Below, one piece after another: positions 10,897 through 64,000 of a DNA stretch of 64,000 bases. This DNA comes from Siphonodentalium dalli (lineage: Eukaryota > Mollusca > Scaphopoda > Gadilida > Siphonodentaliidae): the NCBI GenBank assembly GCA_032622095.1, contig CP136066.1:10255784-10319783 (forward strand), written 5' to 3'. The translations under genes were made by a program, and so were the position numbers. The first letter of the stretch is position 1. Every line of letters begins with the position of its first letter. A model generated the notes under the pieces. The model saw only the letters and a program-made list of their open reading frames with translations, searched no databases and was not told the DNA's origin.

Positions 10897-12019
10897 GTAA
10901 GATATTGGCCGTCAAAATGACGGGTATATAAATGTTCTTCTTTTCTTTCTGGTCTCCGCGGTCATGAACACGGGTATATAAATGTTCTTTGTTACTTTCT
11001 GGTCTCCGCTGTCATAAACACATTATCATCTCTATATTAGCAATGGATTCATCATGCTTCTCTTCACTAGAAGCGCTTGGGAACACTTTATTGAACTAAA
11101 ACTGTATTTTGTACCCCCAACCCTACCCCACATATTTGCATGCACATATGGAAAGCAACAAAATCAACATATTACTTTATTATTATATTTACTGACTGAA
11201 ACAGACTCCATTGGGAGCGTTTATTCAGTGACCCCTTTGTGTGCTATGAGTCTATGCCTCGGGGAAAACTTTATTTCACTAAAATATTCAGATAATTCTG
11301 AAGCCCCTCTGTGAGCTAAGCACACATGCATTATGATCCTGAACAGGCCCCCATCAGGAGAATATTTATAGGCCCACAGGCCCCTGCGCTGCGGCCCATT
11401 TGCACACTTCGCGCCCATTTTGATATTATCTAAATATTATTTTATACATATCAATTTGCTGTCTTCCGGATATATACTCCTTCGATTCCACACGCAATGT
11501 ACAACTTAGTCCGATTTAGTCCTAATAGTATTGCGCTCATCTATTATTGTATGAAACCAAGTAACTACCCATCAGTGACTATTTAGTTACCGAGTGTTAC
11601 CAAGGAAAGCATATAAGGTCAAATAAAAAATAGTATTTATCTCAGACACCGCCGCATTGATATAAATGACTTGCATTGAACGTTTTATTTGGATTTTTGA
11701 TATTATGACCAAAAAAATAATAATTTTAAAATCAAAACTATTTTGGTATGTTTTTACCAACATGTCCATATGTATTGAGCATTAATTGCAACTTACGTGA
11801 ACTCTTAACATATCTCTGTGATTGATAGATTGACTATCATGCTTATGCATACTGACAACATTATGTAGTTGACTACGTTGAAGAAAATGATTAGCTAATC
11901 ATCATAATCTGGTGTACTTATTGTAACTCCAGAACCATTGAAAGGCATTGGAGGAAATTTAGAGTCACATGTTAAAATGGAGAGGTGTCAATTGATAGAC
12001 AACAATAACAATTATGAAT
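10897..12019. other. Unique intronic sequence before the satellite
   Basis: Starts at the exon E donor. A 50-bp tandem duplication (CGGGTATATAAATGTTCTT at 10921 and 10971, each followed by TTTCTGGTCTCCGC) occupies 10921-11030. The rest is AT-rich, with no symplekin exon, RNA gene or satellite-like sequence detected. The last unique bases are AACAATAACAATTATGAAT, directly abutting the first satellite unit. Confidence 0.65.
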
Positions 12020-12300
12020 AGTCAGGGGCATTAGAACATTATTGGTAACCCTATCGCACACAGGTATACTAGTCAGGGGCATTAGAACATTATTGGTAAT
12101 CCCTATGGCATACATGTATACTAGTCAGGGGCATTAGAACATTATTGGTAATCCCTATGGCATACATGTATACTAGTCAGGGGCATTAGAACAGTATTGG
12201 TAATCCCTATGGCATACATGTATACTAGTCAGGGGCATTAGAACATTATTGGTAATCCCTATGGCATACATGTATACTAGTCAGGGGCATTAGAGCATTA
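12020..12300. repeat. Left edge of the satellite
   Basis: The first unit is 51 bp (GGTAACCC form) with private changes giving TATCGCACACAGG in place of TATGGCATACATG. From the second unit on, the copies are already at consensus. There is no run of decayed monomers at the border. Confidence 0.9.
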
Positions 12301-15300
12301 TTGGTAATCCCTATGGCATACATGTATACTAGTCAGGGGCATTAGAACATTATTGGTAATCCCTATGGCATACAGGTATACTAGTCAGGGGCATTAGAAC
12401 AGTATTGGTAATACCTATGGCATACATGTATACTAGTCAGGGGCATTAGAACATTATTGGTAATCCCTATGGCATACATGTATACTAGTCAGGGGCATTA
12501 GAACATTATTGGTAATCCCTATGGCATACAGGTATACTAGTCAGGGGCATTAGAACATTATTGGTAATCCCTATGGCATACAGGTATACTAGTCAGGGGC
12601 ATTAGAACATTATTGGTAATCCCTATGGCATACATGTATACTAGTCAGGGGCATTAGAACATTATTGGTAATCCCTATGGCATACATGTATACTAGTCAG
12701 GGGCATTAGAACATTATTGGTAATCCCTATGGCATACATGTATACTAGTCAGGGGCATTAGAACATTATTGGTAATCCCTATGGCATACAGGTATACTAG
12801 TCAGGGGCATTAGAACATTATTGGTAATCCCTATGGCATACATGTATACTAGTCAGGGGCATTAGAACATTATTGGTAATCCCTATGGCATACAGGTATA
12901 CTAGTCAGGGGCATTAGAACATTATTGGTAATACCTATGGCATACATGTATACTAGTCAGGGGCATTAGAACATTATTGGTAATCCCTATGGCATACATG
13001 TATACTAGTCAGGGGCATTAGAACATTATTGGTAACCCTATGGCATACATGTATACTAGTCAGGGGCATTAGAACATTATTGGTAACCCTATGGCATACA
13101 TGTATACTAGTCAGGGGCATTAGAACATTATTGGTAACCCTATGGCATACATGTATACTAGTCAGGGGCATTAGAACAGTATTGGTAATCCCTATGGCAT
13201 ACATGTATACTAGTCAGGGGCATTATAACATTATTGGTAATCCCTATGGCATACAGGTATACTAGTCAGGGGCATTATAACATTATTGGTAACCCTATGG
13301 CATACAGGTATACTAGTCAGGGGCATTAGAACATTATTGGTAATCCCTATGGCATACATGTATACTAGTCAGGGGCATTAGAGCATTATTGGTAATCCCT
13401 ATGGCATACAGGTATACTAGTCAGGGGCATTAGAACATTATTGGTAATCCCTATGGCATACATGTATACTAGTCAGGGGCATTAGAGCATTATTGGTAAT
13501 CCCTATGGCATACATGTATACTAGTCAGGGGCATTAGAACATTATTGGTAATCCCTATGGCATACAGGTATACTAGTCAGGGGCATTAGAACATTATTGG
13601 TAATCCCTATGGCATACATTTATACTAGTCAGGGGCATTAGAGCATTATTGGTAATCCCTATGGCATACATGTATACTAGTCAGGGGCATTATAACATTA
13701 TTGGTAATCCCTATGGCATACAGGTATACTAGTCAGGGGCATTAGAACATTATTGGTAATCCCTATGGCATACAGGTATACTAGTCAGGGGCATTGGAAC
13801 ATTATTGGTAATCCCTATGGCATACAGGTATACTAGTCAGGGGCATTGGAACATTATTGGTAATCCCTATGGCATACATGTATACTAGTCAGGGGCATTA
13901 GAACATTATTGGTAATCCCTATGGCATACATGTATACTAGTCAGGGGCATTAGAACATTATTGGTAATCCCTATGGCATACATGTATACTAGTCATGGGC
14001 ATTAGAACATTATTGGTAATCCCTATGGCATACATGTATACTAGTCAGGGGCATTAGAACATTATTGGTAATCCCTATGGCATACATTTATACTAGTCAG
14101 GGGCATTAGAACATTATTGGTAATCCCTATGGCATACATGTATACTAACCAGGGGCATTAGAACAGTATTGGTAATCCCTATGGCATACATGTATACTAG
14201 TCAGGGGCATTAGAACATTATTGGTAATCCCTATGGCATACAGGTATACTAGTCATGGGCATTAGAACATTATTGGTAATCCCTATGGCATACATTTATA
14301 CTAGTCAGGGGCATTAGAACATTATTGGTAATCCCTATGGCATACATGTATACTAGTCAGGGGCATTATAACATTATTGGTAATCCCTATGGCATACAGG
14401 TATACTAGTCAGGGGCATTATAACATTATTGGTAATCCCTATGGCATACAGGTATACTAGTCAGGGGCATTAGAACATTATTGGTTATCCCTATGGCATA
14501 CATGTATACTAGTCAGGGGCATTAGAACATTATTGGTTATCCCTATGGCATACAGGTATACTAGTCAGGGGCATTAGAACATTATTGGTAATCCCTATGG
14601 CATACATGTATACTAACCAGGGGCATTAGAACATTATTGGTAATCCCTATGGCATACATGTATACTAACCAGGGGCATTAGAACATTATTGGTAATCCCT
14701 ATGGCATTCATGTATACTAGTCAGGGGCATTAGAACATTATTGGTAACCCTATGGCATACAGGTATACTAGTCAGGGGCATTATAACATTATTGGTAATC
14801 CCTATGGCATACAGGTATACTAGTCAGGGGCATTATAACATTATTGGTAATCCCTATGGCATACATGTATACTAGTCAGGGGCATTAGAACATTATTGGT
14901 AATCCCTATGGCATACATGTATACTAGTCAGGGGCATTATAACAGTATTGGTAATCCCTATGGCATACATGTATACTAACCAGGGGCATTAGAACATTAT
15001 TGGTTATCCCTATGGCATACATGTATACTAGTCAGGGGCATTAGAACATTATTGGTAATCCCTATGGCATTCATGTATACTAGTCAGGGGCATTATAACA
15101 TTATTGGTAATCCCTATGGCATACAGGTATACTAGTCAGGGGCATTATAACATTATTGGTAATCCCTATGGCATACATGTATACTAGTCAGGGACATTAG
15201 AACAGTATTGGTAATCCCTATGGCATACATGTATACTAGTCAGGGGCATTAGAACAGTATTGGTAATCCCTATGGCATACATGTATACTAGTCAGGGGCA

Positions 15301-15467
15301 TTATAACATTATTGGTAATCCCTATGGCATACATGTATACTAGTCAGGGGCATTAGAACATTATTGGTAATCCCTATGGCATACATGTATACTAGTCAGG
15401 GGCATTAGAACAGTATTGGTAATCCCTATGGCATACATGTATACTAGTCAGGGGCATTAGAACAGTA
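12301..15467. repeat. Satellite 61-unit block, copy 1
   Basis: This 3,167-bp block (61 x 52 minus five 51-bp units) is followed directly by its duplicate at 15,468. Markers at the same offset include the TAATACC unit at 12,401, three consecutive 51-bp units near 13,030-13,140, CATACATTTAT at 13,615, AACC units near 14,148, and GGGACATTAG at 15,191. Confidence 0.92.
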
Positions 15468-18400
15468 TTGGTAATCCCTATGGCATACATGTATACTAGT
15501 CAGGGGCATTAGAACATTATTGGTAATCCCTATGGCATACAGGTATACTAGTCAGGGGCATTAGAACAGTATTGGTAATACCTATGGCATACATGTATAC
15601 TAGTCAGGGGCATTAGAACATTATTGGTAATCCCTATGGCATACATGTATACTAGTCAGGGGCATTAGAACATTATTGGTAATCCCTATGGCATACAGGT
15701 ATACTAGTCAGGGGCATTAGAACATTATTGGTAATCCCTATGGCATACAGGTATACTAGTCAGGGGCATTAGAACATTATTGGTAATCCCTATGGCATAC
15801 ATGTATACTAGTCAGGGGCATTAGAACATTATTGGTAATCCCTATGGCATACATGTATACTAGTCAGGGGCATTAGAACATTATTGGTAATCCCTATGGC
15901 ATACATGTATACTAGTCAGGGGCATTAGAACATTATTGGTAATCCCTATGGCATACAGGTATACTAGTCAGGGGCATTAGAACATTATTGGTAATCCCTA
16001 TGGCATACATGTATACTAGTCAGGGGCATTAGAACATTATTGGTAATCCCTATGGCATACAGGTATACTAGTCAGGGGCATTAGAACATTATTGGTAATA
16101 CCTATGGCATACATGTATACTAGTCAGGGGCATTAGAACATTATTGGTAATCCCTATGGCATACATGTATACTAGTCAGGGGCATTAGAACATTATTGGT
16201 AACCCTATGGCATACATGTATACTAGTCAGGGGCATTAGAACATTATTGGTAACCCTATGGCATACATGTATACTAGTCAGGGGCATTAGAACATTATTG
16301 GTAACCCTATGGCATACATGTATACTAGTCAGGGGCATTAGAACAGTATTGGTAATCCCTATGGCATACATGTATACTAGTCAGGGGCATTATAACATTA
16401 TTGGTAATCCCTATGGCATACAGGTATACTAGTCAGGGGCATTATAACATTATTGGTAACCCTATGGCATACAGGTATACTAGTCAGGGGCATTAGAACA
16501 TTATTGGTAATCCCTATGGCATACATGTATACTAGTCAGGGGCATTAGAGCATTATTGGTAATCCCTATGGCATACAGGTATACTAGTCAGGGGCATTAG
16601 AACATTATTGGTAATCCCTATGGCATACATGTATACTAGTCAGGGGCATTAGAGCATTATTGGTAATCCCTATGGCATACATGTATACTAGTCAGGGGCA
16701 TTAGAACATTATTGGTAATCCCTATGGCATACAGGTATACTAGTCAGGGGCATTAGAACATTATTGGTAATCCCTATGGCATACATTTATACTAGTCAGG
16801 GGCATTAGAGCATTATTGGTAATCCCTATGGCATACATGTATACTAGTCAGGGGCATTATAACATTATTGGTAATCCCTATGGCATACAGGTATACTAGT
16901 CAGGGGCATTAGAACATTATTGGTAATCCCTATGGCATACAGGTATACTAGTCAGGGGCATTGGAACATTATTGGTAATCCCTATGGCATACAGGTATAC
17001 TAGTCAGGGGCATTGGAACATTATTGGTAATCCCTATGGCATACATGTATACTAGTCAGGGGCATTAGAACATTATTGGTAATCCCTATGGCATACATGT
17101 ATACTAGTCAGGGGCATTAGAACATTATTGGTAATCCCTATGGCATACATGTATACTAGTCATGGGCATTAGAACATTATTGGTAATCCCTATGGCATAC
17201 ATGTATACTAGTCAGGGGCATTAGAACATTATTGGTAATCCCTATGGCATACATTTATACTAGTCAGGGGCATTAGAACATTATTGGTAATCCCTATGGC
17301 ATACATGTATACTAACCAGGGGCATTAGAACAGTATTGGTAATCCCTATGGCATACATGTATACTAGTCAGGGGCATTAGAACATTATTGGTAATCCCTA
17401 TGGCATACAGGTATACTAGTCATGGGCATTAGAACATTATTGGTAATCCCTATGGCATACATTTATACTAGTCAGGGGCATTAGAACATTATTGGTAATC
17501 CCTATGGCATACATGTATACTAGTCAGGGGCATTATAACATTATTGGTAATCCCTATGGCATACAGGTATACTAGTCAGGGGCATTATAACATTATTGGT
17601 AATCCCTATGGCATACAGGTATACTAGTCAGGGGCATTAGAACATTATTGGTTATCCCTATGGCATACATGTATACTAGTCAGGGGCATTAGAACATTAT
17701 TGGTTATCCCTATGGCATACAGGTATACTAGTCAGGGGCATTAGAACATTATTGGTAATCCCTATGGCATACATGTATACTAACCAGGGGCATTAGAACA
17801 TTATTGGTAATCCCTATGGCATACATGTATACTAACCAGGGGCATTAGAACATTATTGGTAATCCCTATGGCATTCATGTATACTAGTCAGGGGCATTAG
17901 AACATTATTGGTAACCCTATGGCATACAGGTATACTAGTCAGGGGCATTATAACATTATTGGTAATCCCTATGGCATACAGGTATACTAGTCAGGGGCAT
18001 TATAACATTATTGGTAATCCCTATGGCATACATGTATACTAGTCAGGGGCATTAGAACATTATTGGTAATCCCTATGGCATACATGTATACTAGTCAGGG
18101 GCATTATAACAGTATTGGTAATCCCTATGGCATACATGTATACTAACCAGGGGCATTAGAACATTATTGGTTATCCCTATGGCATACATGTATACTAGTC
18201 AGGGGCATTAGAACATTATTGGTAATCCCTATGGCATTCATGTATACTAGTCAGGGGCATTATAACATTATTGGTAATCCCTATGGCATACAGGTATACT
18301 AGTCAGGGGCATTATAACATTATTGGTAATCCCTATGGCATACATGTATACTAGTCAGGGACATTAGAACAGTATTGGTAATCCCTATGGCATACATGTA

Positions 18401-18704
18401 TACTAGTCAGGGGCATTAGAACAGTATTGGTAATCCCTATGGCATACATGTATACTAGTCAGGGGCATTATAACATTATTGGTAATCCCTATGGCATACA
18501 TGTATACTAGTCAGGGGCATTAGAACATTATTGGTAATCCCTATGGCATACATGTATACTAGTCAGGGGCATTAGAACAGTATTGGTAATCCCTATGGCA
18601 TACATGTATACTAGTCAGGGGCATTAGAACAGTATTGGTAATCCCTATGGCATACATGTATACTAGTCAGGGGCATTAGAACATTATTGGTAATCCCTAT
18701 GGCA
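15468..18704. repeat. Satellite 61-unit block, copy 2
   Basis: Matches 12,301-15,537 at an offset of 3,167 bp at every marker I compared, including all five 51-bp units. The match stops at 18,705, where GGCACACATG replaces GGCATACAGG. The left limit is near 15,468, where the preceding unit has AACAGT against AGCATT in copy 1. Confidence 0.92.
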
Positions 18705-21700
18705 CACATGTATACTAGTCAGGGGCATTAGAACAGTATTGGTAATCCCTATGGCATACATGTATACTAGTCAGGGGCATTAGAACATTATTGGTAATCC
18801 CTATGGCATACATGTATACTAGTCAGGGGCATTAGAACATTATTGGTAATACCTATGGCATACATGTATACTAGTCAGGGGCATTAGAACATTATTGGTA
18901 ATACCTATGGCATACATGTATACTAGTCAGGGGCATTATAACATTATTGGTAATCCCTATGGCATACATGTATACTAGTCAGGGGCATTAGAACATTATT
19001 GGTAATACCTATGGCATACATGTATACTAGTCAGGGGCATTAGAACAGTATTGGTAATCCCTATGGCATACATGTATACTAGTCGGGGGCATTAGAACAT
19101 TATTGGTAATACCTATGGCATACATGTATACTAGTCGGGGGCATTAGAACAGTATTGGTAATCCCTATGGCATACAGGTATACTAGTCAGGGGCATTAGA
19201 ACATTATTGGTAATCCCTATGGCATACATGTATACTAGTCAGGGGCATTAGAACATTATTGGTAATACCTATGGCATACATGTATACTAGTCAGGGGCAT
19301 TATAACATTATTGGTAATCACTATGGCATACATGTATACTAGTCAGGGGCATTAGAACATTATTGGTAATCCCTATGGCATACATGTATACTAGTCAGGG
19401 GCATTAGAACATTATTGGTAATCCCTATGGCATACATGTATACTAGTCAGGGGCATTAGAACATTATTGGTAATACCTATGGCATACATGTATACTAGTC
19501 AGGGGCATTAGAACATTATTGGTAATACCTATGGCATACATGTATACTAGTCAGGGGCATTATAACATTATTGGTAATCCCTATGGCATACATGTATACT
19601 AGTCAGGGGCATTAGAACATTATTGGTAATACCTATGGCATACATGTATACTAGTCAGGGGCATTAGAACATTATTGGTAATCCCTATGGCATACATGTA
19701 TACTAGTCAGGGGCATTAGAACATTATTGGTAATACCTATGGCATACATGTATACTAGTCAGGGGCATTATAACATTATTGGTAATCCCTATGGCATACA
19801 TGTATACTAGTCAGGGGCATTAGAACATTATTGGTAATACCTATGGCATACATGTATACTAGTCAGGGGCATTATAACATTATTGGTAATCCCTATGGCA
19901 TACATGTATACTAGTCAGGGGCATTAGAACATTATTGGTAATACCTATGGCATACATGTATACTAGTCAGGGGCATTAGAACATTATTGGTAATCCCTAT
20001 GGCATACATGTATACTAGTCAGGGGCATTATAACATTATTGGTAATCACTATGGCATACATGTATACTAGTCAGGGGCATTATAACATTATTGGTAATCA
20101 CTATGGCATACATGTATACTAGTCAGGGGCATTATAACATTATTGGTTATCCCTATGGCATACAGGTATACTAGTCAGGGGCATTAGAACAGTATTGGTA
20201 ATCCCTATGGCATACATGTATACTAGTCAGGGGCATTAGAACAGTATTGGTAATCCCTATGGCATACATGTATACTAGTCAGGGGCATTATAACATTATT
20301 GGTAATCCCTATGGCATACATGTATACTAGTCAGGGGCATTAGAACATTATTGGTAATCCCTATGGCACACAGGTATACTAGTCATGGGCATTAGAACAT
20401 TATTGGTAATCCCTATGGCATACAGGTATACTAGTCATGGGCATTAGAACATTATTGGTAATACCTATGGCATACATGTATACTAGTCAGGGGCATTAGA
20501 ACATTATTGGTAATCCCTATGGCATACATGTATACTAGCCAGGGGCATTATAACATTATTGGTAATCCCTATGGCATACATGTATACTAGCCAGGGGCAT
20601 TATAACATTATTGGTAACCCTATGGCATACAGGTATACTAGTCAGGGGCATTAGAACAGTATTGGTAATCCCTATGGCATACATGTATACTAGCCAGGGG
20701 CATTATAACATTATTGGTAATCCCTATGGCATACATGTATACTAGTCAGGGGCATTAGAACATTATTGGTAATCCCTATGGCATACATGTATACTAGTCA
20801 GGGGCATTATAACATTATTGGTAATCCCTATGGCATACATGTATACTAGTCAGGGGCATTATAACATTATTGGTAATCCCTATGGCATACATGTATACTA
20901 GTCAGGGGCATTATAACATTATTGGTAATCCCTATGGCATACATGTATACTAACCAGGGGCATTAGAACATTATTGGTAATCCCTATGGCATACATGTAT
21001 ACTAGTCAGGGGCATTAGAACATTATTGGTAATCCCTATGGCATACAGGTATACTAGTCAGGGGCATTAGAACATTATTGGTAATCCCTATGGCATACAT
21101 GTATACTAGCCAGGGGCATTAGAACATTATTGGTAATCCCTATGGCATACAGGTATACTAGTCAGGGGCATTATAACATTATTGGTAATCCCTATGGCAT
21201 ACATGTATACTAGTCAGGGGCATTAGAACAGTATTGGTAATCCCTATGGCATACATGTATACTAGTCAGGGGCATTAGAACAGTATTGGTAATCCCTATG
21301 GCATACATGTATACTAGTCAGGGGCATTAGAACATTATTGGTAATCCCTATGGCATACAGGTATACTAGTCAGGGGCATTAGAACATTATTGGTAATCCC
21401 TATGGCATACATGTATACTAGTCAGGGTCATTAGAACAGTATTGGTAATCCCTATGGCATACAGGTATACTAGCCAGGGTCATTAGAACAGTATTGGTAA
21501 TCCCTATGGCATACATGTATACTAGTCAGGGGCATTAGAACATTATTGGTAATCCCTATGGCATACATGTATACTAGTCAGGGGCATTAGAACATTATTG
21601 GTAATCCCTATGGCATACATGTATACTAACCAGGGGCATTAGAACATTATTGGTAATCCCTATGGCATACAGGTATACTAGTCAGGGGCATTAGAACATT

Positions 21701-24700
21701 ATTGGTAATCCCTATGGCATACAGGTATACTAGTCAGGGGCATTAGAACATTATTGGTAATCCCTATGGCATACATGTATACTAGTCAGGGGCATTAGAA
21801 CATTATTGGTAATCCCTATGGCATACATGTATACTAACCAGGGGCATTAGAACATTATTGGTAATCCCTATGGCATACATGTATACTAGTCGGGGGCATT
21901 ATAACATTATTGGTAATCCCTATGGCATACATGTATACTAGCCAGGGGCATTAGAACATTATTGGTAATCCCTATGGCATACAGGTATACTAGTCAGGGG
22001 CATTAGAACATTATTGGTAATCCCTATGGCATACATGTATACTAGCCAGGGTCATTAGAACAGTATTGGTAATCCCTATGGCATACATTTATACTAGTCA
22101 GGGGCATTAGAACATTATTGGTAATCCCTATGGCATACATGTATACTAGTCAGGGGCATTAGAACATTATTGGTTATCCCTATGGCATACATGTATACTA
22201 GTCAGGGGCATTAGAACATTATTGGTAATCCCTATGGCATACATGTATACTAGTCAGGGGCATTATAACATTATTGGTAATCCCTATGGCATACATGTAT
22301 ACTAGTCAGGGGCATTAGAACATTATTGGTAATCCCTATGGCATACAGGTATACTAGTCAGGGGCATTAGAACATTATTGGTAATCCCTATGGCATACAT
22401 GTATACTAGCCAGGGGCATTAGAACATTATTGGTAATCCCTATGGCATACAGGTATACTAGTCAGGGGCATTATAACATTATTGGTAATCCCTATGGCAT
22501 ACATGTATACTAGTCAGGGGCATTAGAACAGTATTGGTAATCCCTATGGCATACATGTATACTAGTCAGGGGCATTAGAACAGTATTGGTAATCCCTATG
22601 GCATACAGGTATACTAGTCGGGGGCATTAGAACATTATTGGTAATCCCTATGGCATACATGTATACTAGTCAGGGGCATTAGAACAGTATTGGTAATCCC
22701 TATGGCATACAGGTATACTAGTCAGGGGCATTAGAACATTATTGGTAATCCCTATGGCATACATGTATACTAGTCAGGGGCATTAGAACATTATTGGTAA
22801 TCCCTATGGCATACATGTATACTAGTCAGGGGCATTAGAACAGTATTGGTAATCCCTATGGCATACAGGTATACTAGTCAGGGGCATTAGAACATTATTG
22901 GTAATCCCTATGGCATACATGTATACTAGTCAGGGGCATTAGAACATTATTGGTAATCCCTATGGCATACAGGTATACTAGTCAGGGGCATTAGAACATT
23001 ATTGGTAATCCCTATGGCATACATGTATACTAGTCAGGGGCATTAGAGCATTATTGGTAATCCCTATGGCATACATGTATACTAGTCAGGGGCATTAGAA
23101 CATTATTGGTAATCCCTATGGCATACATGTATACTAGCCAGGGGCATTAGAGCATTATTGGTAATCCCTATGGCATACAGGTATACTAGTCAGGGGCATT
23201 AGAACATTATTGGTAATACCTATGGCATACAGGTATACTAGTCAGGGGCATTATAACATTATTGGTAATCCCTATGGCATACATGTATACTAGTCAGGGG
23301 CATTAGAACATTATTGGTAATCCCTATGGCATACATGTATACTAGCCAGGGGCATTAGAGCATTATTGGTAATCCCTATGGCATACAGGTATACTAGTCA
23401 GGGGCATTAGAACATTATTGGTAATCCCTATGGCATACATGTATACTAGCCAGGGGCATTAGAACATTATTGGTAATCCCTATGGCATACAGGTATACTA
23501 GTCAGGGGCATTATAACATTATTGGTAATCCCTATGGCATACATGTATACTAGCCAGGGGCATTAGAACATTATTGGTAATACCTATGGCATACATGTAT
23601 ACTAGTCAGGGGCATTAGAACATTATTGGTAATCCCTATGGCATACATGTATACTAGTCAGGGGCATTAGAACATTATTGGTAATACCTATGGCATACAG
23701 GTATACTAGTCAGGGGCATTAGAACATTATTGGTAATCCCTATGGCATACATGTATACTAGCCAGGGTCATTAGAACAGTATTGGTAATCCCTATGGCAT
23801 ACATGTATACTAGTCAGGGGCATTAGAACATTATTGGTAATCCCTATGGCATACATGTATACTAGTCAGGGGCATTAGAACATTATTGGTAATCCCTATG
23901 GCATACAGGTATACTAGTCGGGGGCATTAGAACATTATTGGTAATCCCTATGGCATACATGTATACTAGTCAGGGGCATTAGAACATTATTGGTAATCCC
24001 TATGGCATACATGTATACTAGTCAGGGGCATTAGAACAGTATTGGTAATCCCTATGGCATACATGTATACTAGTCAGGGGCATTAGAACATTATTGGTAA
24101 TCCCTATGGCATACATGTATACTAGTCAGGGGCATTAGAACATTATTGGTAATCCCTATGGCATACATGTATACTAGTCAGGGGCATTAGAACATTATTG
24201 GTAACCCTATGACATACATTTATACTAGTCAGGGGCATTAGAACATTATTGGTAATCCCTATGGCATACAGGTTTACTAGTCAGGGGCATTAGAACAGTA
24301 TTGGTAATCCCTATGGCATACAGGTATACTAGTCAGGGGCATTAGAACATTATTGGTAATCCCTATGGCATACATGTATACTAGTCAGGGGCATTATAAC
24401 ATTATTGGTAATCCCTATGGCATACAGGTATACTAGTCAGGGGCATTATAACATTATTGGTAATCCCTATGGCATACAGGTATACTAGTCAGGGGCATTA
24501 GAACATTATTGGTAATCCCTATGGCATACATGTATACTAGTCAGGGGCATTAGAACAGTATTGGTAATCCCTATGGCATACATGTATACTAGTCAGGGGC
24601 ATTATAACATTATTGGTAATCCCTATGGCATACATGTATACTAGTCAGGGGCATTAGAACATTATTGGTAATCCCTATGGCATACATGTATACTAGTCAG

Positions 24701-27700: not shown

Positions 27701-29220
27701 AGGTATACTAGTCAGGGGCATTATAACATTATTGGTAATCCCTATGGCATACATGTATACTAGTCAGGGGCATTATAACAGTATTGGTTATCCCTATGGC
27801 ATACATGTATACTAGTCAGGGGCATTAGAACAGTATTGGTAATCCCTATGGCATACATGTATACTAGTCAGGGGCATTAGAACAGTATTGGTAATCCCTA
27901 TGGCATACATGTATACTATTCAGGGGCATTATAACATTATTGGTAATCCCTATGGCATACATGTATACTAGTCAGGGTCATTAGAACAGTATTGGTAATC
28001 CCTATGGCATACATGTATACTAGTCAGGGGCATTATAACATTATTGGTAATCCCTATGGCATACATGTATACTAGTCAGGGGCATTAGAACATTATTGGT
28101 AATCCCTATGGCATACAGGTATACTAGTCAGGGGCATTAGAACATTATTGGTAATCCCTATGTCATACATGTATACTAGTCAGGGGCATTAGAACATTAT
28201 TGGTAATCCCTATGGCATACATGTATACTAGTCAGGGGCATTAGAACATTATTGGTAATCCCTATGGCATACATGTATACTAGTCAGGGGCATTAGAACA
28301 GTATTGGTAATCCCTATGGCATACATGTATACTAGTCAGGGGCATTAGAACATTATTGGTAATCCCTATGGCATACATGTATACTAGTCAGGGGCATTAG
28401 AACATTATTGGTAATCCCTATGGCATACATGTATACTAGTCAGGGGCATTAGAACATTATTGGTAATCCCTATGGCATACATGTATACTAGTCAGGGGCA
28501 TTATAACATTATTGGTAATCCCTATGGCATACATGTATACTAGTCAGGGTCATTAGAACATTATTGGTAATCCCTATGGCATACATGTATACTAGTCAGG
28601 GGCATTAGAACAGTATTGGTAATCCCTATGGCATACATGTATACTAGTCAGGGGCATTAGAACAGTATTGGTAATCCCTATGGCATACATGTATACTAGT
28701 CAGGGGCATTAGAACAGTATTGGTAATCCCTATGGCATACATGTATACTAGTCAGGGGCATTAGAACATTATTGGTAACCCTATGGCATACATGTATACT
28801 AGTCAGGGGCATTAGAACATTATTGGTAATCCCTATGGCATACATGTATACTAGTCAGGGGCATTAGAACAGTATTGGTAATCCCTATGGCATACATGTA
28901 TACTAGTCAGGGGCATTAGAACATTATTGGTAATCCCTATGGCATACAGGTATACTAGTCAGGGGCATTAGAACATTATTGGTAATCCCTATGGCATACA
29001 GGTATACTAGTCAGGGGCATTAGAACATTATTGGTAATCCCTATGGCATACATGTATACTAGTCAGGGGCATTATAACATTATTGGTAATCCCTATGGCA
29101 TACATGTATACTATTCAGGGGCATTAGAACATTATTGGTAATCCCTATGGCATACATGTATACTAGTCAGGGGCATTAGAGCATTATTGGTAATCCCTAT
29201 GGCATACATGTATACTAGTC
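18705..29220. repeat. Satellite domain with AGTC/AGCC and GGTAAT units
   Basis: Most units begin AGTC and carry GGTAAT and ATGGCAT. TAATACC units are concentrated at about 18.8-20.0 kb, and AGCC units with ATTATA at about 20.5-27 kb. Local block copies are visible, for example the AGCC-TAATACC combination at about 25,241 and 25,813 (572 bp, 11 units) and an ACAGG-linked TAATACC unit at 25,449 and 26,333 (884 bp, 17 units). Confidence 0.85.
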
Positions 29221-35860: not shown

Positions 35861-35869
35861 ATGTCATAC

Positions 35870-41800: not shown

Positions 41801-42165
41801 GTATACTATTCAGGGGCATTATAACATTATTGGTAATCCCTATGTCATACATGTATACTATTCAGGGACATTATAACATTATTGGTTATCCCTATGTCAT
41901 ACAGGTATACTAGACAGGGACATTATAACATTATTGGTAATCCCTATGGCATACATGTATACTATTCAGGGACATTATAACATTATTGGTTATCCCTATG
42001 TCATACAGGTATACTATTCAGGGACATTATAACATTATTGGTAATCCCTATGTCATACATGTATACTAGACAGGGGCATTATAACAGTATTGGTAATCCC
42101 TATGGCATACATGTATACTATTCAGGGGCATTATAACAGTATTGGTAATCCCTATGTCATACATG
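35870..42165. repeat. Satellite domain with ATTC, GGGACA and GTCAT units
   Basis: The unit start shifts mainly to ATTC, with GGGACATTATA, GGTTAT and ATGTCAT. A private variant, ATTATTAGT in place of ATTATTGGT, appears about eleven times, only between 36.2 and 38.4 kb. A block containing two such pairs at about 36,241 recurs at 38,167 (offset 1,926 bp = 37 units plus two extra bases). Confidence 0.85.
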
Positions 42166-51000: not shown

Positions 51001-54000
51001 CATGTATACTAGTCAGGGACATTATAACATTATTGGTTATCCCTATGGCATACATGTATACTATTCAGGGGCATTATAACATTATTGGTTATCCCTATGT
51101 CATACATGTATACTATTCAGGGGCATTATAACATTATTGGTTATCCCTATGTCATACATGTATACTAGTCAGGGACATTATAACATTATTGGTTATCCCT
51201 ATGGCATACATGTATACTAGTCAGGGACATTATAACATTATTGGTCATCCCTATGTCATACATGTATACTAACCAGGGACATTATAACATTATTGGTTAT
51301 CCCTATGTCATACATGTATACTAGTCAGGGGCATTATAACATTATTGGTTATCCCTATGTCATACATGTATACTATTCAGGGGCATTATAACATTATTGG
51401 TTAACCCTATGGCATACATGTATACTATTCAGGGGCATTATAACATTATTGGTTATCCCTATGTCATACATGTATACTATTCAGGGACATTATAACATTA
51501 TTGGTAATCCCTATGTCATACATGTATACTATTCAGGGTCATTATAACATTATTGGTTATCCCTATGGCATACATGTATACTAGTCAGGGGCATTAGAAC
51601 ATTATTGGTTATCCCTATGTCATACATGTATACTATTCAGGGGCATTATAACATTATTGGTTATCCCTATGTCATACATGTATACTATTCAGGGGCATTA
51701 TAACATTATTGGTTATCCCTATGTCATACATGTATACTAGTCAGGGGCATTATAACATTATTGGTTATCCCTATGTCATACATGTATACTATTCAGGGGC
51801 ATTATAACATTATTGGTTATCCCTATGTCATACATGTATACTATTCAGGGGCATTATAACAGTATTGGTTATCCCTATGTCATACATGTATACTATTCAG
51901 GGACATTATAACATTATTGGTTATCCCTATGTCATACATGTATACTATTCAGGGACATTATAACATTATTGGTTATCCCTATGTCATACATGTATACTAG
52001 CCAGGGGCATTATAACATTATTGGTTATCCCTATGTCATACATGTATACTATTCAGGGGCATTATAACATTATTGGTTATCCCTATGTCATACATGTATA
52101 CTATTCAGGGTCATTATAACATTATTGGTTATCCCTATGTCATACATGTATACTATTCAGGGGCATTATAACATTATTGGTTATCCCTATGTCATACATG
52201 TATACTATTCAGGGGCATTATAACATTATTGGTTATCCCTATGTCATACATGTATACTATTCAGGGGCATTATAACATTATTGGTTATCCCTATGTCATA
52301 CATGTATACTAGTCAGGGGCATTATAACATTATTGGTTATCCCTATGTCATACATGTATACTATTCAGGGACATTATAACAGTATTGGTTATCCCTATGT
52401 CATACATGTATACTATTCAGGGACATTATAACATTATTGGTCATCCCTATGGCATACATGTATACTATTCAGGGGCATTATAACATTATTGGTTATCCCT
52501 ATGGCATACATGTATACTATTCAGGGGCATTATAACATTATTGGTTATCCCTATGTCATACATGTATACTATTCAGGGACATTATAACATTATTGGTTAT
52601 CCCTATGGCATACATGTATACTATTCAGGGACATTATAACATTATTGGTAATCCCTATGGCATACATGTATACTATTCAGGGACATTATAACATTATTGG
52701 TTATCCCTATGGCATACATGTATACTAGTCAGGGGCATTATAACATTATTGGTTATCCCTATGTCATACATGTATACTAGTCAGGGACATTATAACATTA
52801 TTGGTTATCCCTATGTCATACATGTATACTATTCAGGGACATTATAACATTATTGGTAATCCCTATGTCATACATGTATACTATTCAGGGACATTAGAAC
52901 ATTATTGGTAATCCCTATGTCATACATGTATACTATTCAGGGACATTAGAACATTATTGGTAATCCCTATGTCATACATGTATACTAACCAGGGGCATTA
53001 TAACATTATTGGTCATCCCTATGTCATACATGTATACTAACCAGGGGCATTATAACATTATTGGTTATCCCTATGGCATACATGTATACTATTCAGGGAC
53101 ATTATAACATTATTGGTTATCCCTATGGCATACATGTATACTATTCAGGGACATTATAACATTATTGGTTATCCCTATGTCATACATGTATACTAACCAG
53201 GGGCATTATAACATTATTGGTTATCCCTATGTCATACATGTATACTAACCAGGGGCATTATAACATTATTGGTTATCCCTATGGCATACATGTATACTAT
53301 TCAGGGACATTATAACATTATTGGTTATCCCTATGTCATACATGTATACTAGTCAGGGGCATTAGAACATTATTGGTTATCCCTATGTCATACATGTATA
53401 CTATTCAGGGACATTATAACATTATTGGTTATCCCTATGTCATACATGTATACTAGTCAGGGTCATTATAACAGTATTGGTTATCCCTATGGCATACATG
53501 TATACTATTCAGGGTCATTATAACAGTATTGGTTATCCCTATGGCATACATGTATACTATTCAGGGACATTATAACATTATTGGTAATCCCTATGTCACA
53601 CATGTATACTATTCAGGGACATTATAACATTATTGGTTATCCCTATGTCATACATGTATACTAGTCAGGGGCATTATAACATTATTGGTTATCCCTATGG
53701 CATACATGTATACTAACCAGGGGCATTAGAACATTATTGGTTATCCCTATGGCATACATGTATACTAGTCAGGGGCATTATAACATTATTGGTCATCCCT
53801 ATGGCATACATGTATACTAGTCAGGGTCATTATAACAGTATTGGTAATCCCTATGGCATACATGTATACTAACCAGGGGCATTAGAACATTATTGGTTAT
53901 CCCTATGGCATACATGTATACTAGTCAGGGGCATTATAACATTATTGGTTATCCCTATGTCATACATGTATACTAGTCAGGGTCATTATAACAGTATTGG

Positions 54001-57000
54001 TAATCCCTATGGCATACATGTATACTATTCAGGGACATTATAACATTATTGGTTATCCCTATGTCATACATGTATACTATTCAGGGACATTATAACATTA
54101 TTGGTTATCCCTATGTCATACATGTATACTATTCAGGGACATTATAACATTATTGGTTATCCCTATGTCATACATGTATACTAACCAGGGGCATTATAAC
54201 AGTATTGGTTATCCCTATGGCATACATGTATACTATTCAGGGACATTATAACATTATTGGTTATCCCTATGTCATACATGTATACTAGCCAGGGTCATTA
54301 TAACATTATTGGTAATCCCTATGGCATACATGTATACTATTCAGGGACATTATAACATTATTGGTTATCCCTATGTCATACATGTATACTAACCAGGGGC
54401 ATTATAACAGTATTGGTTATCCCTATGGCATACATGTATACTATTCAGGGACATTATAACATTATTGGTTATCCCTATGTCATACATGTATACTATTCAG
54501 GGACATTATAACATTATTGGTTATCCCTATGTCATACATGTATACTATTCAGGGGCATTATAACAGTATTGGTTATCCCTATGTCATACATGTATACTAA
54601 CCAGGGACATTATAACATTATTGGTAATCCCTATGGCATACATGTATACTATTCAGGGACATTAGAACATTATTGGTAATCCCTATGGCATACATGTATA
54701 CTATTCAGGGGCATTATAACAGTATTGGTAATCCCTATGGCATACATGTATACTATTCAGGGACATTATAACATTATTGGTTATCCCTATGGCATACATG
54801 TATACTATTCAGGGACATTATAACAGTATTGGTTATCCCTATGGCATACATGTATACTATTCAGGGACATTATAACATTATTGGTTATCCCTATGTCATA
54901 CAGGTATACTATTCAGGGGCATTAGAACATTATTGGTTATCCCTATGGCATACATGTATACTAGTCAGGGACATTATAACATTATTGGTTATCCCTATGG
55001 CATACATGTATACTAGTCAGGGGCATTAGAACATTATTGGTAATCCCTATGTCATACATGTATACTATTCAGGGACATTATAACATTATTGGTTATCCCT
55101 ATGTCATACATGTATACTATTCAGGGACATTATAACATTATTGGTTATCCCTATGGCATACATGTATACTAGTCAGGGGCATTATAACATTATTGGTAAT
55201 CCCTATGGCATACATGTATACTAGTCAGGGGCATTATAACATTATTGGTAATCCCTATGTCATACATGTATACTATTCAGGGACATTATAACATTATTGG
55301 TAATCCCTATGTCATACATGTATACTATTCAGGGGCATTATAACATTATTGGTTATCCCTATGTCATACATGTATACTAGTCAGGGACATTAGAACATTA
55401 TTGGTTATCCCTATGTCATACATGTATACTATTCAGGGACATTATAACATTATTGGTTATCCCTATGTCATACATGTATACTATTCAGGGGCATTATAAC
55501 ATTATTGGTTATCCCTATGTCATACATGTATACTAGTCAGGGACATTAGAACATTATTGGTTATCCCTATGGCATACATGTATACTATTCAGGGGCATTA
55601 TAACATTATTGGTTATCCCTATGTCATACATGTATACTATTCAGGGACATTATAACATTATTGGTTATCCCTATGTCATACATGTATACTATTCAGGGGC
55701 ATTATAACATTATTGGTTATCCCTATGGCATACATGTATACTAGTCAGGGGCATTATAACATTATTGGTTATCCCTATGTCATACATGTATACTATTCAG
55801 GGGCATTATAACATTATTGGTTATCCCTATGGCATACAGGTATACTATTCAGGGGCATTATAACATTATTGGTTATCCCTATGTCATACATGTATACTAT
55901 TCAGGGACATTATAACATTATTGGTTATCCCTATGTCATACATGTATACTAGTCAGGGGCATTATAACATTATTGGTTATCCCTATGGCATACATGTATA
56001 CTAGTCAGGGGCATTATAACATTATTGGTTATCCCTATGTCATACATGTATACTAGTCAGGGGCATTATAACATTATTGGTAATCCCTATGTCATACATG
56101 TATACTATTCAGGGACATTATAACATTATTGGTCATCCCTATGTCATACATGTATACTATTCAGGGGCATTATAACAGTATTGGTTATCCCTATGTCATA
56201 CATGTATACTATTCAGGGACATTATAACATTATTGGTAATCCCTATGGCATACATGTATACTAGTCAGGGGCATTATAACATTATTGGTTATCCCTATGG
56301 CATACATGTATACTATTCAGGGGCATTATAACATTATTGGTTATCCCTATGGCATACATGTATACTAGTCAGGGGCATTATAACATTATTGGTTATCCCT
56401 ATGGCATACATGTATACTAGTCAGGGGCATTATAACATTATTGGTTATCCCTATGTCATACATGTATACTAGCCAGGGGCATTAGAACATTATTGGTAAT
56501 CCCTATGGCATACAGGTATACTATTCAGGGACATTATAACATTATTGGTAATCCCTATGGCATACAGGTATACTATTCAGAGGCATTATAACATTATTGG
56601 TTATCCCTATGTCATACATGTATACTATTCAGGGACATTATAACATTATTGGTTATCCCTATGGCATACATGTATACTAGTCAGGGGCATTATAACATTA
56701 TTGGTAATCCCTATGGCATACATGTATACTATTCAGGGACATTATAACATTATTGGTTATCCCTATGGCATACATGTATACTAGTCAGGGGCATTATAAC
56801 ATTATTGGTTATCCCTATGGCATACATGTATACTAGTCAGGGGCATTAGAACATTATTGGTAATCCCTATGGCATACATGTATACTAGTCAGGGACATTA
56901 TAACATTATTGGTTATCCCTATGTCATACATGTATAATAGTCAGGGACATTATAACATTATTGGTAATCCCTATGGCATACATGTATACTAGTCAGGGAC

Positions 57001-57980
57001 ATTATAACATTATTGGTAATCCCTATGGCATACATGTATACTAGTCAGGGACATTATAACATTATTGGTAATCCCTATGTCATACATGTATACTAGTCAG
57101 GGGCATTAGAACATTATTGGTAATCCCTATGTCATACATGTATACTAGTCAGGGGCATTATAACATTATTGGTTATCCCTATGGCATACATGTATACTAT
57201 TCAGGGACATTATAACAGTATTGGTCATCCCTATGTCATACATGTATACTATTCAGGGACATTATAACATTATTGGTTATCCCTATGTCATACATGTATA
57301 CTAGTCAGGGGCATTATAACATTATTGGTTATCCCTATGTCATACATGTATACTATTCAGGGACATTATAACATTATTGGTTATCCCTATGGCATACATG
57401 TATACTATTCAGGGACATTATAACATTATTGGTTATCCCTATGGCATACATGTATACTATTCAGGGGCATTATAACATTATTGGTTATCCCTATGTCATA
57501 CATGTATACTATTCAGGGACATTATAACAGTATTGGTCATCCCTATGTCATACATGTATACTATTCAGGGGCATTATAACATTATTGGTTATCCCTATGT
57601 CATACATGTATACTATTCAGGGGCATTATAACATTATTGGTTATCCCTATGTCATACATGTATACTATTCAGGGACATTATAACATTATTGGTTATCCCT
57701 ATGTCATACATGTATACTAGTCAGGGGCATTATAACATTATTGGTTATCCCTATGTCATACATGTATACTATTCAGGGACATTATAACATTATTGGTTAT
57801 CCCTATGGCATACATGTATACTATTCAGGGACATTATAACATTATTGGTTATCCCTATGGCATACATGTATACTATTCAGGGGCATTATAACATTATTGG
57901 TTATCCCTATGTCATACATGTATACTATTCAGGGACATTATAACAGTATTGGTCATCCCTATGTCATACATGTATACTAT
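45001..57980. repeat. Satellite domain, mixed AGTC/ATTC with GTCAT
   Basis: Dominated by ATTATAACATT with GGTTAT and ATGTCAT; unit starts alternate irregularly between AGTC and ATTC, and GGGG alternates with GGGA. AGAC starts are scattered at 41.7-45.4 kb. Only one 51-bp unit is seen (near 49,997). The 51,401 unit reads GGTTAACCC but keeps the 52-bp length. Confidence 0.8.
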
Positions 57981-59513
57981 TCAGGGGCATTATAACATTA
58001 TTGGTTATCCCTATGTCATACATGTATACTATTCAGGGGCATTATAACATTATTGGTTATCCCTATGTCATACATGTATACTATTCAGGGACATTATAAC
58101 ATTATTGGTTATCCCTATGTCATACATGTATACTAGTCAGGGGCATTATAACATTATTGGTCATCCCTATGTCATACATGTATACTATTCAGGGGCATTA
58201 GAACATTATTGGTCATCCCTATGTCATACATGTATACTATTCAGGGACATTATAACATTATTGGTTATCCCTATGGCATACATGTATACTATTCAGGGGC
58301 ATTATAACATTATTGGTTATCCCTATGTCATACATGTATACTAGTCAGGGGCATTATAACATTATTGGTTATCCCTATGTCATACATGTATACTATTCAG
58401 GGGCATTATAACATTATTGGTAATCCCTATGTCATACATGTATACTATTCAGGGGCATTATAACATTATTGGTTATCCCTATGGCATACATGTATACTAT
58501 TCAGGGGCATTATAACATTATTGGTTATCCCTATGTCATACATGTATACTAGTCAGGGGCATTATAACATTATTGGTTATCCCTATGTCATACATGTATA
58601 CTATTCAGGGGCATTATAACATTATTGGTAATCCCTATGTCATACATGTATACTATTCAGGGGCATTATAACATTATTGGTTATCCCTATGGCATACATG
58701 TATACTATTCAGGGGCATTATAACATTATTGGTTATCCCTATGTCATACATGTATACTAGTCAGGGGCATTATAACATTATTGGTTATCCCTATGGCATA
58801 CATGTATACTATTCAGGGGCATTATAACATTATTGGTTATCCCTATGTCATACATGTATACTAGTCAGGGGCATTATAACATTATTGGTTATCCCTATGT
58901 CATACATGTATACTATTCAGGGGCATTATAACATTATTGGTTATCCCTATGTCATACATGTATACTATTCAGGGACATTATAACATTATTGGTTATCCCT
59001 ATGTCATACATGTATACTAGTCAGGGGCATTATAACATTATTGGTCATCCCTATGTCATACATGTATACTATTCAGGGGCATTAGAACATTATTGGTCAT
59101 CCCTATGTCATACATGTATACTATTCAGGGACATTATAACATTATTGGTTATCCCTATGGCATACATGTATACTATTCAGGGGCATTATAACATTATTGG
59201 TTATCCCTATGTCATACATGTATACTAGTCAGGGGCATTATAACATTATTGGTTATCCCTATGTCATACATGTATACTATTCAGGGGCATTATAACATTA
59301 TTGGTAATCCCTATGTCATACATGTATACTATTCAGGGGCATTATAACATTATTGGTTATCCCTATGGCATACATGTATACTATTCAGGGGCATTATAAC
59401 ATTATTGGTTATCCCTATGTCATACATGTATACTAGTCAGGGGCATTATAACATTATTGGTTATCCCTATGTCATACATGTATACTATTCAGGGGCATTA
59501 TAACATTATTGGT
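57981..59513. repeat. Satellite 17-unit duplication (884 bp)
   Basis: 57,981-58,629 reappears at 58,865-59,513 with the same succession of variants, including the adjacent ATTATA...GGTCAT and ATTAGA...GGTCAT pair at about 58,155-58,215 and 59,040-59,100. Between the copies a four-unit (208-bp) pattern repeats at 58,419 and 58,627. Confidence 0.88.
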
Positions 59514-59999
59514 TATCCCTATGTCATACATGTATACTATTCAGGGACATTATAACATTATTGGTTATCCCTATGTCATACATGTATACTATTCAGGGAC
59601 ATTATAACATTATTGGTTATCCCTATGGCATACATGTATACTATTCAGGGGCATTATAACATTATTGGTTATCCCTATGTCATACATGTATACTATTCAG
59701 GGGCATTATAACATTATTGGTTATCCCTATGGCATACATGTATACTATTCAGGGGCATTATAACATTATTGGTTATCCCTATGTCATACATGTATACTAT
59801 TCAGGGGCATTATAACATTATTGGTAATCCCTATGGCATACATGTATACTATTCAGGGACATTATAACATTATTGGTCATCCCTATGTCATACATGTATA
59901 CTATTCAGGGGCATTATAACATTATTGGTTATCCCTATGGCATACATGTATACTATTCAGGGGCATTATAACATTATTGGTTATCCCTATGTCATACAT

Positions 60000-62900
60000 G
60001 TATACTATTCAGGGACATTATAACATTATTGGTCATCCCTATGTCATACATGTATACTAGTCAGGGACATTATAACATTATTGGTTATCCCTATGTCATA
60101 CATGTATACTATTCAGGGACATTATAACATTATTGGTCATCCCTATGTCATACATGTATACTAGTCAGGGACATTATAACATTATTGGTCATCCCTATGT
60201 CATACATGTATACTAGTCAGGGACATTATAACATTATTGGTCATCCCTATGGCATACATGTATACTAGTCAGGGGCATTATAACATTATTGGTCATCCCT
60301 ATGGCATACATGTATACTAACCAGGGACATTATAACAGTATTGGTTATCCCTATGTCATACATGTATACTATTCAGGGACATTATAACATTATTGGTCAT
60401 CCCTATGGCATACATGTATACTAGTCAGGGGCATTATAACATTATTGGTCATCCCTATGGCATACATGTATACTAGTCAGGGGCATTATAACATTATTGG
60501 TTATCCCTATGGCATACATGTATACTAACCAGGGACATTATAACAGTATTGGTTATCCCTATGTCATACATGTATACTATTCAGGGACATTATAACATTA
60601 TTGGTCATCCCTATGGCATACATGTATACTATTCAGGGACATTATAACATTATTGGTTATCCCTATGTCATACATGTATACTATTCAGGGACATTATAAC
60701 AGTATTGGTTATCCCTATGTCATACATGTATACTATTCAGGGACATTATAACATTATTGGTTATCCCTATGTCATACATGTATACTAGTCAGGGGCATTA
60801 TAACATTATTGGTTATCCCTATGACATACATGTATACTAGTCAGGGACATTATAACATTATTGGTCATCCCTATGGCATACATGTATACTAGTCAGGGGC
60901 ATTATAACATTATTGGTCATCCCTATGACATACATGTATACTATTCAGGGACATTAGAACATTATTGGTTATCCCTATGGCATACATGTATACTAACCAG
61001 GGACATTATAACATTATTGGTCATCCCTATGACATACATGTATACTATTCAGGGACATTATAACATTATTGGTTATCCCTATGTCATACATGTATACTAT
61101 TCAGGGACATTATAACATTATTGGTCATCCCTATGGCATACATGTATACTAGTCAGGGGCATTATAACATTATTGGTCATCCCTATGGCATACATGTATA
61201 CTAACCAGGGACATTATAACATTATTGGTCATCCCTATGACATACATGTATACTATTCAGGGACATTAGAACATTATTGGTTATCCCTATGGCATACATG
61301 TATACTAACCAGGGACATTATAACATTATTGGTCATCCCTATGACATACATGTATACTATTCAGGGACATTATAACATTATTGGTTATCCCTATGTCATA
61401 CATGTATACTATTCAGGGGCATTATAACATTATTGGTAATACCTATGACATACATGTATACTATTCAGGGACATTATAACATTATTGGTTATCCCTATGG
61501 CATACATGTATACTAGTCAGGGGCATTAGAACATTATTGGTAATCCCTATGGCATACATGTATACTATTCAGGGACATTATAACAGTATTGGTTATCCCT
61601 ATGTCATACAGGTATACTAGTCAGGGACATTATAACATTATTGGTCATCCCTATGGCATACATGTATACTATTCAGGGACATTATAACATTATTGGTAAT
61701 CCCTATGACATACATGTATACTATTCAGGGGCATTATAACATTATTGGTCATCCCTATGGCATACATGTATACTAACCAGGGACATTATAACATTATTGG
61801 TCATCCCTATGACATACATGTATACTATTCAGGGACATTAGAACATTATTGGTTATCCCTATGGCATACATGTATACTAACCAGGGACATTATAACATTA
61901 TTGGTCATCCCTATGACATACATGTATACTATTCAGGGACATTAGAACATTATTGGTTATCCCTATGGCATACATGTATACTATTCAGGGACATTATAAC
62001 ATTATTGGTAATCCCTATGTCATACATGTATACTATTCAGGGGCATTATAACATTATTGGTCATCCCTATGTCATACATGTATACTAGTCAGGGGCATTA
62101 GAACATTATTGGTTATCCCTATGGCATACATGTATACTAGTCAGGGACATTATAACATTATTGGTCATCCCTATGTCATACATGTATACTAGTCAGGGAC
62201 ATTATAACATTATTGGTTATCCCTATGGCATACATGTATACTATTCAGGGACATTATAACATTATTGGTCATCCCTATGTCATACATGTATACTAGTCAG
62301 GGACATTATAACATTATTGGTCATCCCTATGACATACATGTATACTATTCAGGGACATTAGAACATTATTGGTTATCCCTATGGCATACATGTATACTAA
62401 CCAGGGACATTATAACATTATTGGTCATCCCTATGACATACATGTATACTATTCAGGGACATTAGAACATTATTGGTTATCCCTATGGCATACATGTATA
62501 CTAACCAGGGACATTATAACATTATTGGTCATCTCTATGTCATACATGTATACTAACCAGGGACATTATAACATTATTGGTCATCCCTATGGCATACATG
62601 TATACTAGTCAGGGACATTATAACATTATTGGTCATCCCTATGTCATACATGTATACTAGTCAGGGGCATTATAACATTATTGGTTATCCCTATGTCATA
62701 CATGTATACTATTCAGGGGCATTATAACATTATTGGTTATCCCTATGTCATACATGTATACTAGTCAGGGACATTATAACATTATTGGTTATCCCTATGG
62801 CATACATGTATACTAGTCAGGGACATTATAACATTATTGGTCATCTCTATGTCATACATGTATACTAACCAGGGACATTATAACATTATTGGTCATCCCT

Positions 62901-63420
62901 ATGTCATACATGTATACTAGTCAGGGACATTATAACATTATTGGTTATCCCTATGGCATACATGTATACTAACCAGGGACATTATAACATTATTGGTCAT
63001 CCCTATGACATACATGTATACTATTCAGGGACATTAGAACATTATTGGTTATCCCTATGGCATACATGTATACTAACCAGGGACATTATAACATTATTGG
63101 TCATCCCTATGACATACATGTATACTATTCAGGGACATTAGAACATTATTGGTTATCCCTATGGCATACATGTATACTAACCAGGGACATTATAACATTA
63201 TTGGTCATCTCTATGTCATACATGTATACTAACCAGGGACATTATAACATTATTGGTCATCCCTATGTCATACATGTATACTAGTCAGGGACATTATAAC
63301 ATTATTGGTCATCCCTATGTCATACATGTATACTAGTCAGGGGCATTATAACATTATTGGTTATCCCTATGGCATACATGTATACTAGTCAGGGACATTA
63401 TAACATTATTGGTCATCCCT
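60000..63420. repeat. Satellite domain with GGTCAT and GACAT units, nested dimers
   Basis: GGTCAT and ATGACAT variants are strongly enriched. A 104-bp dimer (AACC...ATTATA...GGTCAT...GACAT followed by ATTC...ATTAGA...GGTTAT...GGCAT) appears at about 60,985, 61,200-61,340, 61,770-61,940, 62,395-62,500 and 62,970-63,170. The rare ATCTCTATG variant marks three related units at 62,531, 62,843 and 63,207, 312 and 364 bp apart (676 bp = 13 units in total). Confidence 0.87.
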
Positions 63421-64000
63421 ATGTCATACATGTATACTAGTCAGGGACATTATAACATTATTGGTTATCCCTATGTCATACATGTATACTATTCAGGGGC
63501 ATTATAACATTATTGGTTATCCCTATGTCATACATGTATACTAGTCAGGGGCATTATAACAGTATTGGTAATCCCTATGGCATACATGTATACTATTCAG
63601 GGACATTATAACAGTATTGGTCATCCCTATGGCATACATGTATACTATTCAGGGGCATTATAACATTATTGGTTATCCCTATGTCATACATGTATACTAG
63701 TCAGGGTCATTATAACATTATTGGTTATCCCTATGTCATACATGTATACTATTCAGGGACATTATAACATTATTGGTTATCCCTATGTCATACATGTATA
63801 CTATTCAGGGACATTATAACATTATTGGTTATCCCTATGTCATACATGTATACTAGTCAGGGTCATTATAACATTATTGGTTATCCCTATGTCATACATG
63901 TATACTAGTCAGGGTCATTATAACATTATTGGTTATCCCTATGTCATACATGTATACTAGTCAGGGACATTATAACAGTATTGGTTATCCCTATGTCATA

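Follow-up and report, generated by a model that had tools for sequence, protein, structure and literature searches.

A 75-kb satellite array in an intron of symplekin, most likely born in situ from one transposon copy

Two kinds of described system come close to the locus reported here. Transcription through gigantic introns that bear satellite DNA has been described for the Drosophila Y fertility genes kl-3 and kl-5 (PMC6508621, PMC11207136, in the parts consulted here). Satellites formed from segments of transposable elements have been described in Lathyrus, where they derive from LTR sequences (PMC7004042, likewise in part), and for Tetris/TIR-220 in Drosophila virilis (PMC4079207, likewise in part). 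The array that we analysed in Siphonodentalium dalli resembles kl-3 and kl-5, as portrayed in those excerpts, in that satellite DNA occupies an intron of a protein-coding gene; transcription through the array has been shown there and is expected here. The same excerpts describe megabase introns, simple repeats at several loci, a Y-chromosomal location and expression in spermatogenesis (PMC6508621, PMC11207136), whereas the symplekin array measures 75 kb, is built from a 52-bp unit that is nearly private to its locus, and lies in a conserved gene for which a second copy was not seen. As in Lathyrus and Tetris/TIR-220, as far as the excerpts describe them, an internal part of a dispersed element has been amplified into a tandem array that the element still surrounds. 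In those cases, according to the same parts of the papers, tandem repeats were already present in the element, and amplification took place preferentially in primary constrictions or beta-heterochromatin (PMC7004042, PMC4079207), whereas here the segment is single in 38 of the 56 genomic matches listed and the large array lies in a gene intron. Each kind is already known, and the array adds a new member that combines them, a nearly locus-private satellite, most likely transposon-derived, inside an apparently single-copy conserved gene. A 75-kb satellite in a symplekin intron is unusual, yet of a known kind; our literature search returned no paper joining symplekin, satellite DNA and intron.

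The region examined consisted of the window, by which we mean the whole 64-kb stretch of DNA under analysis (genome G000, contig C6, positions 10,255,784–10,319,783), joined to the next 50 kb of the same contig with the window numbering kept. The resulting 114 kb contain no N bases. On this sequence TRF placed the 52-bp array (unit TAGTCAGGGGCATTATAACATTATTGGTAATCCCTATGGCATACATGTATAC, forward strand) at 12,019–87,516 in continued coordinates, a length of 75,498 bp with 95% matches, of which 12,019–64,000 falls inside the window. Its start lies 1,122 bp past exon E of symplekin, in agreement with a previous sequence-only reading. That reading had also described the satellite as one that never stops, which holds inside the window, whereas in the continued sequence the array ends at 87,516.

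Exon E (10,815–10,896, forward strand), the last before the array, ends at a codon boundary with a GTAAGA donor (GAT GAG/GTAAGA, phase 0), just as had been read earlier. The sequence-only reading had called for a look to the right of the window for the next exon, and exon F was found there at 88,110–88,223 (TGTTACAG/AAT...GAG/GTAAGA, phase 0), on the same contig and strand and matching the donor at 10,896 in phase, with 593 bp of intron sequence separating it from the array end. Intron E–F (forward strand; 10,897–64,000 inside the window) runs from the GTAAGA donor to a TTACAG acceptor at 88,104–88,109, with phase 0 on both sides. It measures 77,213 bp, 97.8% of which is satellite (75,498/77,213 bp), and the remaining 13 introns between joined exons measure 176–4,427 bp each. 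The position of the array between consecutive, same-strand, phase-compatible exons and its share of most of the intron are both features of satellite-bearing giant introns; the megabase intron size of the Drosophila Y genes is absent here, at 77 kb.

Upstream of exon E, on the same strand, lie exon D1 (5,497–5,614), with AG/GT borders, a consistent phase and a match to the symplekin structure 6v4x_J from query residue 8 on, and exons D2 (7,294–7,380) and D3 (9,601–9,796), both placed by the joined-exon model and the match of the joined protein to 6v4x_J. The model covers exons D1 to N (5,497–108,960), and exons upstream of the window were mapped in part. AG/GT borders and consistent phases were found in 15 of 15 exons, including the 11 joined downstream of the array, which are all open and in phase. 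The exon search was guided mostly by the human symplekin sequence, and exon G2 came from a scored search with a human piece (best score 44, against 24 in a reverse-complement control). Outside the joined model, an exon after N is visible with AG and GT borders, and the acidic tail is visible as an open stretch.

We then compared the unit with the rest of the genome (2.227 Gb in 9 contigs). An exact 27-mer of the unit had 314 + 14 matches, 295 of them within the 114 kb, and a degenerate 31-mer had 1,346 + 8, of which 1,342 of 1,354 fell within the 114 kb and 12 elsewhere, words of both kinds overlooking more diverged relatives. The array is nearly private to the symplekin locus, and so it does not represent a fragment strayed from some identical satellite that is abundant elsewhere. 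A query of two units gave at least 56 matches with 40 of 152 candidates scored, and the symplekin array is itself absent from these matches, common words having been skipped. Among the 56 matches listed, 38 were single stretches of about one unit on many contigs, often of 56 bp, that is, one unit plus a second TAGT, and 18 lay in two arrays on contig C3. The 16 places that were fetched have several hundred bases in common around the 52-bp segment, which elsewhere in the genome usually occurs once, bounded by TAGT, in a dispersed element of about 0.6–0.7 kb. That the unit forms part of a dispersed element, as the single matches and the homologous flanks of the 16 fetched places show, is a feature of transposon-derived satellites.

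So is the presence of element remnants on both sides of the array. The left half of the putative progenitor was placed at 11,608–12,073 (forward strand), reaching into the first 52-bp unit; its left end is approximate (11,603–11,616), and copies L008, L016, L021 and L023 carry the left-flank match out to about these positions. We took the majority of 14 of the 16 fetched places as the element consensus, leaving out the array-bearing L021 and also L013, which duplicates L012 almost identically. In a BLASTN comparison, the left intron flank (11,732–12,073) aligned with consensus positions 224–573 at 89%, and the last unit (87,462–87,516) matched positions 518–572 at 94.5%. The right half (87,583–87,751) matched positions 560–751 at 74%, being degraded and interrupted, and an inverted-repeat insertion of about 66 bp (87,517–87,582) separates it from the last unit. 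Because the flanks match the element consensus on both sides, the array lies inside one old element copy, and since these flanks are two halves of one dispersed element, a single transposon copy at this site is the most likely source of the satellite.

The ends of the window copy are TIR-like with a score of 36, which none of 500 shuffles equalled (best shuffle 33). Its terminal motif was also present in two of seven dispersed copies tested, L017 (3 of 200 shuffles as good) and L023 (14 of 200), and was not shown by the remaining four; in L008, 4 of 200 shuffles did as well, but the alignment was on other, A/T-rich sequence. The element is probably a short non-autonomous one, with TIR-like ends that are modest in the window copy. 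The 56-bp segment is highly conserved across the copies fetched, but this was set aside because the choice of copies biases it. On contig C3, an overlapping part of the 52-bp segment has its own array at L021 (276.4 Mb; 27 bp x 28.3), and the other C3 array matched by the two-unit query lies at 277.39 Mb.

Misassembly is a classic problem at tandem arrays, and a gene arm might have been misjoined to an array from elsewhere, for example from a centromere, or a short array might have been inflated. In keeping with this, a block of 61 units (3,167 bp) is tandemly duplicated exactly, at 12,330 and 15,497, which could be either a recent event or an echo of assembly. A join of unrelated arms is nevertheless disfavoured because two halves of one transposable element flank the array; moreover, the two sides belong to the same intron, the unit is nearly absent from the rest of the genome, with the 12 of 1,354 degenerate matches noted above, and the assembled sequence is free of N bases. 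Within the array, 71,999 of 71,999 windows of 3.5 kb were unique, as were all windows of 5 kb, and accurate long reads could therefore place themselves and assemble it. This uniqueness speaks for the assembly, though it is no substitute for reads, and altogether we regard an artefact as improbable.

Monomer decomposition resolved the array into 1,453 units, the last a remnant of three bases. The units are 95.3% identical to the consensus and fall into 237 distinct types, so that the earlier description of a pure satellite is slightly generous. Minor alleles reach at least 2% at ten unit sites, and 32 of the 52 sites show at most two departures across all units. Singleton variants number only 15 in 75,480 bases, which we read as recent turnover or recent amplification. 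On average, the outer units (first 300 and last 252) are 94.7% identical to the element segment, compared with 91.2% for units 700–1,099; since 30 of 1,451 array rotations do equally well and the bins were set after the variant structure had been seen, support for this edge-to-centre gradient is moderate. It suggests that the edges are old and the centre younger.

The near-invariance of 32 sites, together with the lack of AATAAA on either strand of the array, might be taken as signs of a selected element, for example a device acting on transcriptional delay, chromatin or splicing, a reading compatible with an origin in situ. Against it, the amplified variants give no sign of protected positions, as 28 of them occupy 20 sites where 21.8 are expected by chance (P=0.22), and we therefore rejected positional constraint within the unit. 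The low private variation is accounted for by recent amplification, and one 208-nt sample of array RNA showed no better folding than its shuffled versions (z −1.05; 30 of 200 matched it). Selection on the array is accordingly very improbable. The sense strand of the array contains three ATTAAA motifs; GTAAGT and GTGAGT are absent, and GTAATC, which we judge to be a weak donor, occurs 741 times. A sigma-70-type scan of 12,019–12,500 returned nine promoter-like sites where 2.2 were expected, with one in each unit and all on the forward strand, and was discounted, the model being bacterial and the units repeated.

The joined exons translate to 559 aa without a stop. Against the PDB, this protein matched one distinct sequence at E ≤ 0.001, symplekin 6v4x_J, which we take to be the human protein, with 737.5 bits for the stretch, and the alignment is free of gaps across the E/F junction (KYCMDE-NRVTTGMYTLRDL against KYCEDE-SRTYLGMSTLRDL). 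The joined protein also matched Symplekin_C (PF12295) with 250 bits, and the two matches bear out the assignment of these exons to symplekin that had been made from the sequence alone. In the genome, 14 of 14 matches of the joined protein fell at the symplekin locus on the same strand (40 of 40 candidates scored), as did both matches of PF12295, and the one match of PF11935 lay upstream at C6:10,225,113. Because all 14 protein matches fall at this locus, a second symplekin copy was not seen genome-wide in the searches with the joined protein, PF12295 and PF11935, and the gene appears to be single-copy in this genome. The sequence-only reading had allowed that the remaining exons might lie on another scaffold, or that an intact second locus might mark this one as a fragment; the following exons share the contig with those before the array, and the searches above showed no second locus. 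That the array silences or truncates symplekin and leaves the downstream exons decaying or unused is hardly credible, because, although a 77-kb satellite intron could draw heterochromatin and the other 13 introns are far smaller, the 11 post-array exons are open, AG/GT-bordered, phase-consistent and conserved, a second copy able to supply the function was not found, and the stops flagged in Symplekin_C-region matches fall outside exon M (107,939–108,126) and the other joined exons.

The position of the array, the matching phases, the intact exons, the searches that revealed no second copy, the element halves on both sides, the near-privacy of the unit and its layered variants are direct observations, and the account that very probably covers them is an insertion of the element into intron E–F followed by amplification of its 52-bp segment in situ, with the gene left intact, transcribed and spliced. 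It corresponds to the first of three options offered by the sequence-only reading, the others being an assembly join and a broken allele, both disfavoured here. A short non-autonomous element of about 0.6–0.7 kb with TIR-like ends would have landed in the intron, and a 52-bp segment inside it, with the 4-bp direct repeat TAGT at its borders, would then have been tandemly duplicated. The TAGT repeats at both segment ends suggest slippage or unequal exchange at this microhomology as the first step. Further rounds of duplication, both local and of whole blocks, would have brought the array to about 1,453 units and left the most derived variants at its centre; the block step is shown in part by the exact 61-unit block. 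Since ordinary intron sequence surrounds the array, symplekin would be expected to be transcribed through some 75 kb of satellite, and splicing would be expected to remove the array along with everything else in the 77-kb intron, leaving the symplekin protein unaffected. The array itself is presumably without function.

Large satellites are usually heterochromatic and common to many loci, so that the birth of a satellite is hard to read. At the symplekin array, the progenitor element is still around, unmultiplied relatives occur elsewhere, and an apparently single-copy conserved gene lies on both sides. With all three preserved, satellite birth, central growth and the tolerance of a transcribed satellite become testable at one locus. 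A further reading, which we hold only tentatively and consider doubtful, is that the birth record is complete: one element copy in an intron of an essential gene would have expanded on the spot into a centromere-like, layered array of 75 kb with old edges and a young centre, almost absent elsewhere and transcribed with symplekin. If this were true, changes in array length would be free to tune symplekin output.

The surroundings of the array are themselves rich in repeats. Leaving the 52-bp array aside, 36% of the sequence in the 154-kb locus is tandemly repeated, compared with 9.5% in eight 10-kb stretches hand-picked at round-number positions and 10.5% across 18 gene loci. Mirages are minisatellites at exon/intron boundaries that have been described in amphioxus (PMC3087553, in the part consulted here), and several symplekin arrays likewise repeat an exon end together with its splice site. 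This likeness concerns the neighbouring arrays, in which exon ends and splice sites stand in tandem, and not the 52-bp array. The symplekin boundary arrays comprise about 33, 27 and 62 copies, compared with 3 and 6 units given for amphioxus BflGb6 in that part of the source (PMC3087553).

Tandem arrays that copy exon ends together with their splice donors were found at three symplekin exons on contig CP136066.1 (C6). The first, an 85-bp x 33 array at C6:10,225,192-10,227,997, lies 27.8-30.6 kb left of the window, and its consensus unit comprises the tail of a symplekin exon followed by a GAG|GTAAG donor. Judged from this consensus, the array holds at most about 33 tandem 5′ splice sites, and at least two of the units read depart from the consensus donor (GTTAGT). 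The second, a 93-bp x 27 array, is located right of the window at C6:10,357,479-10,359,950 (101,696-104,167 when the window numbering is carried on), and each unit contains the end of exon K, a GTGAGT donor and about 30 bp of intron. The unit length equals 31 codons, and the match is covered by a 758-aa open frame, with a frame shift near 103.87 kb. The third is an 18-bp x 62 array at C6:10,364,734-10,365,848 (continued coordinates 108,951-110,065), whose unit, CCAACATCAG|GTATGCAT, is a copy of the end of exon N and its donor.

On the acceptor side, a 33-bp x 3.7 array at C6:10,343,619-10,343,741 (continued coordinates 87,836-87,958) is placed between the 52-bp satellite and exon F, the first symplekin exon after it, and copies the acceptor side of that exon, TTACAG|AATCGAGTGATG. 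The symplekin locus also carries a second large array, 55 bp x 109 (6 kb, 99% matches), which lies to the left of the window at a distance of 1.3-7.3 kb (C6:10,248,460-10,254,455).

Of 18 loci tested in other conserved genes, three had tandem arrays overlapping the matched exon: L048 (1347-1563), L049 (861-1572 and 1674-2030) and L051 (1430-1562). Inspection by eye of the L048 and L049 sequences revealed repeated splice-site-like words in both.

Within the window, 20-bp arrays at 9092-9233 and 9489-9556 resemble, by eye, the terminal sequence of the same element family as the presumed source of the satellite, or of a related one. On another contig, C7, the matches listed include at least seven copies of the 52-bp element segment at 51,913,956-52,010,976. 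Since four of the six gaps between neighbours among these matches measure 12.7-13.3 kb, the spacing suggests that this region is a large tandem repeat.
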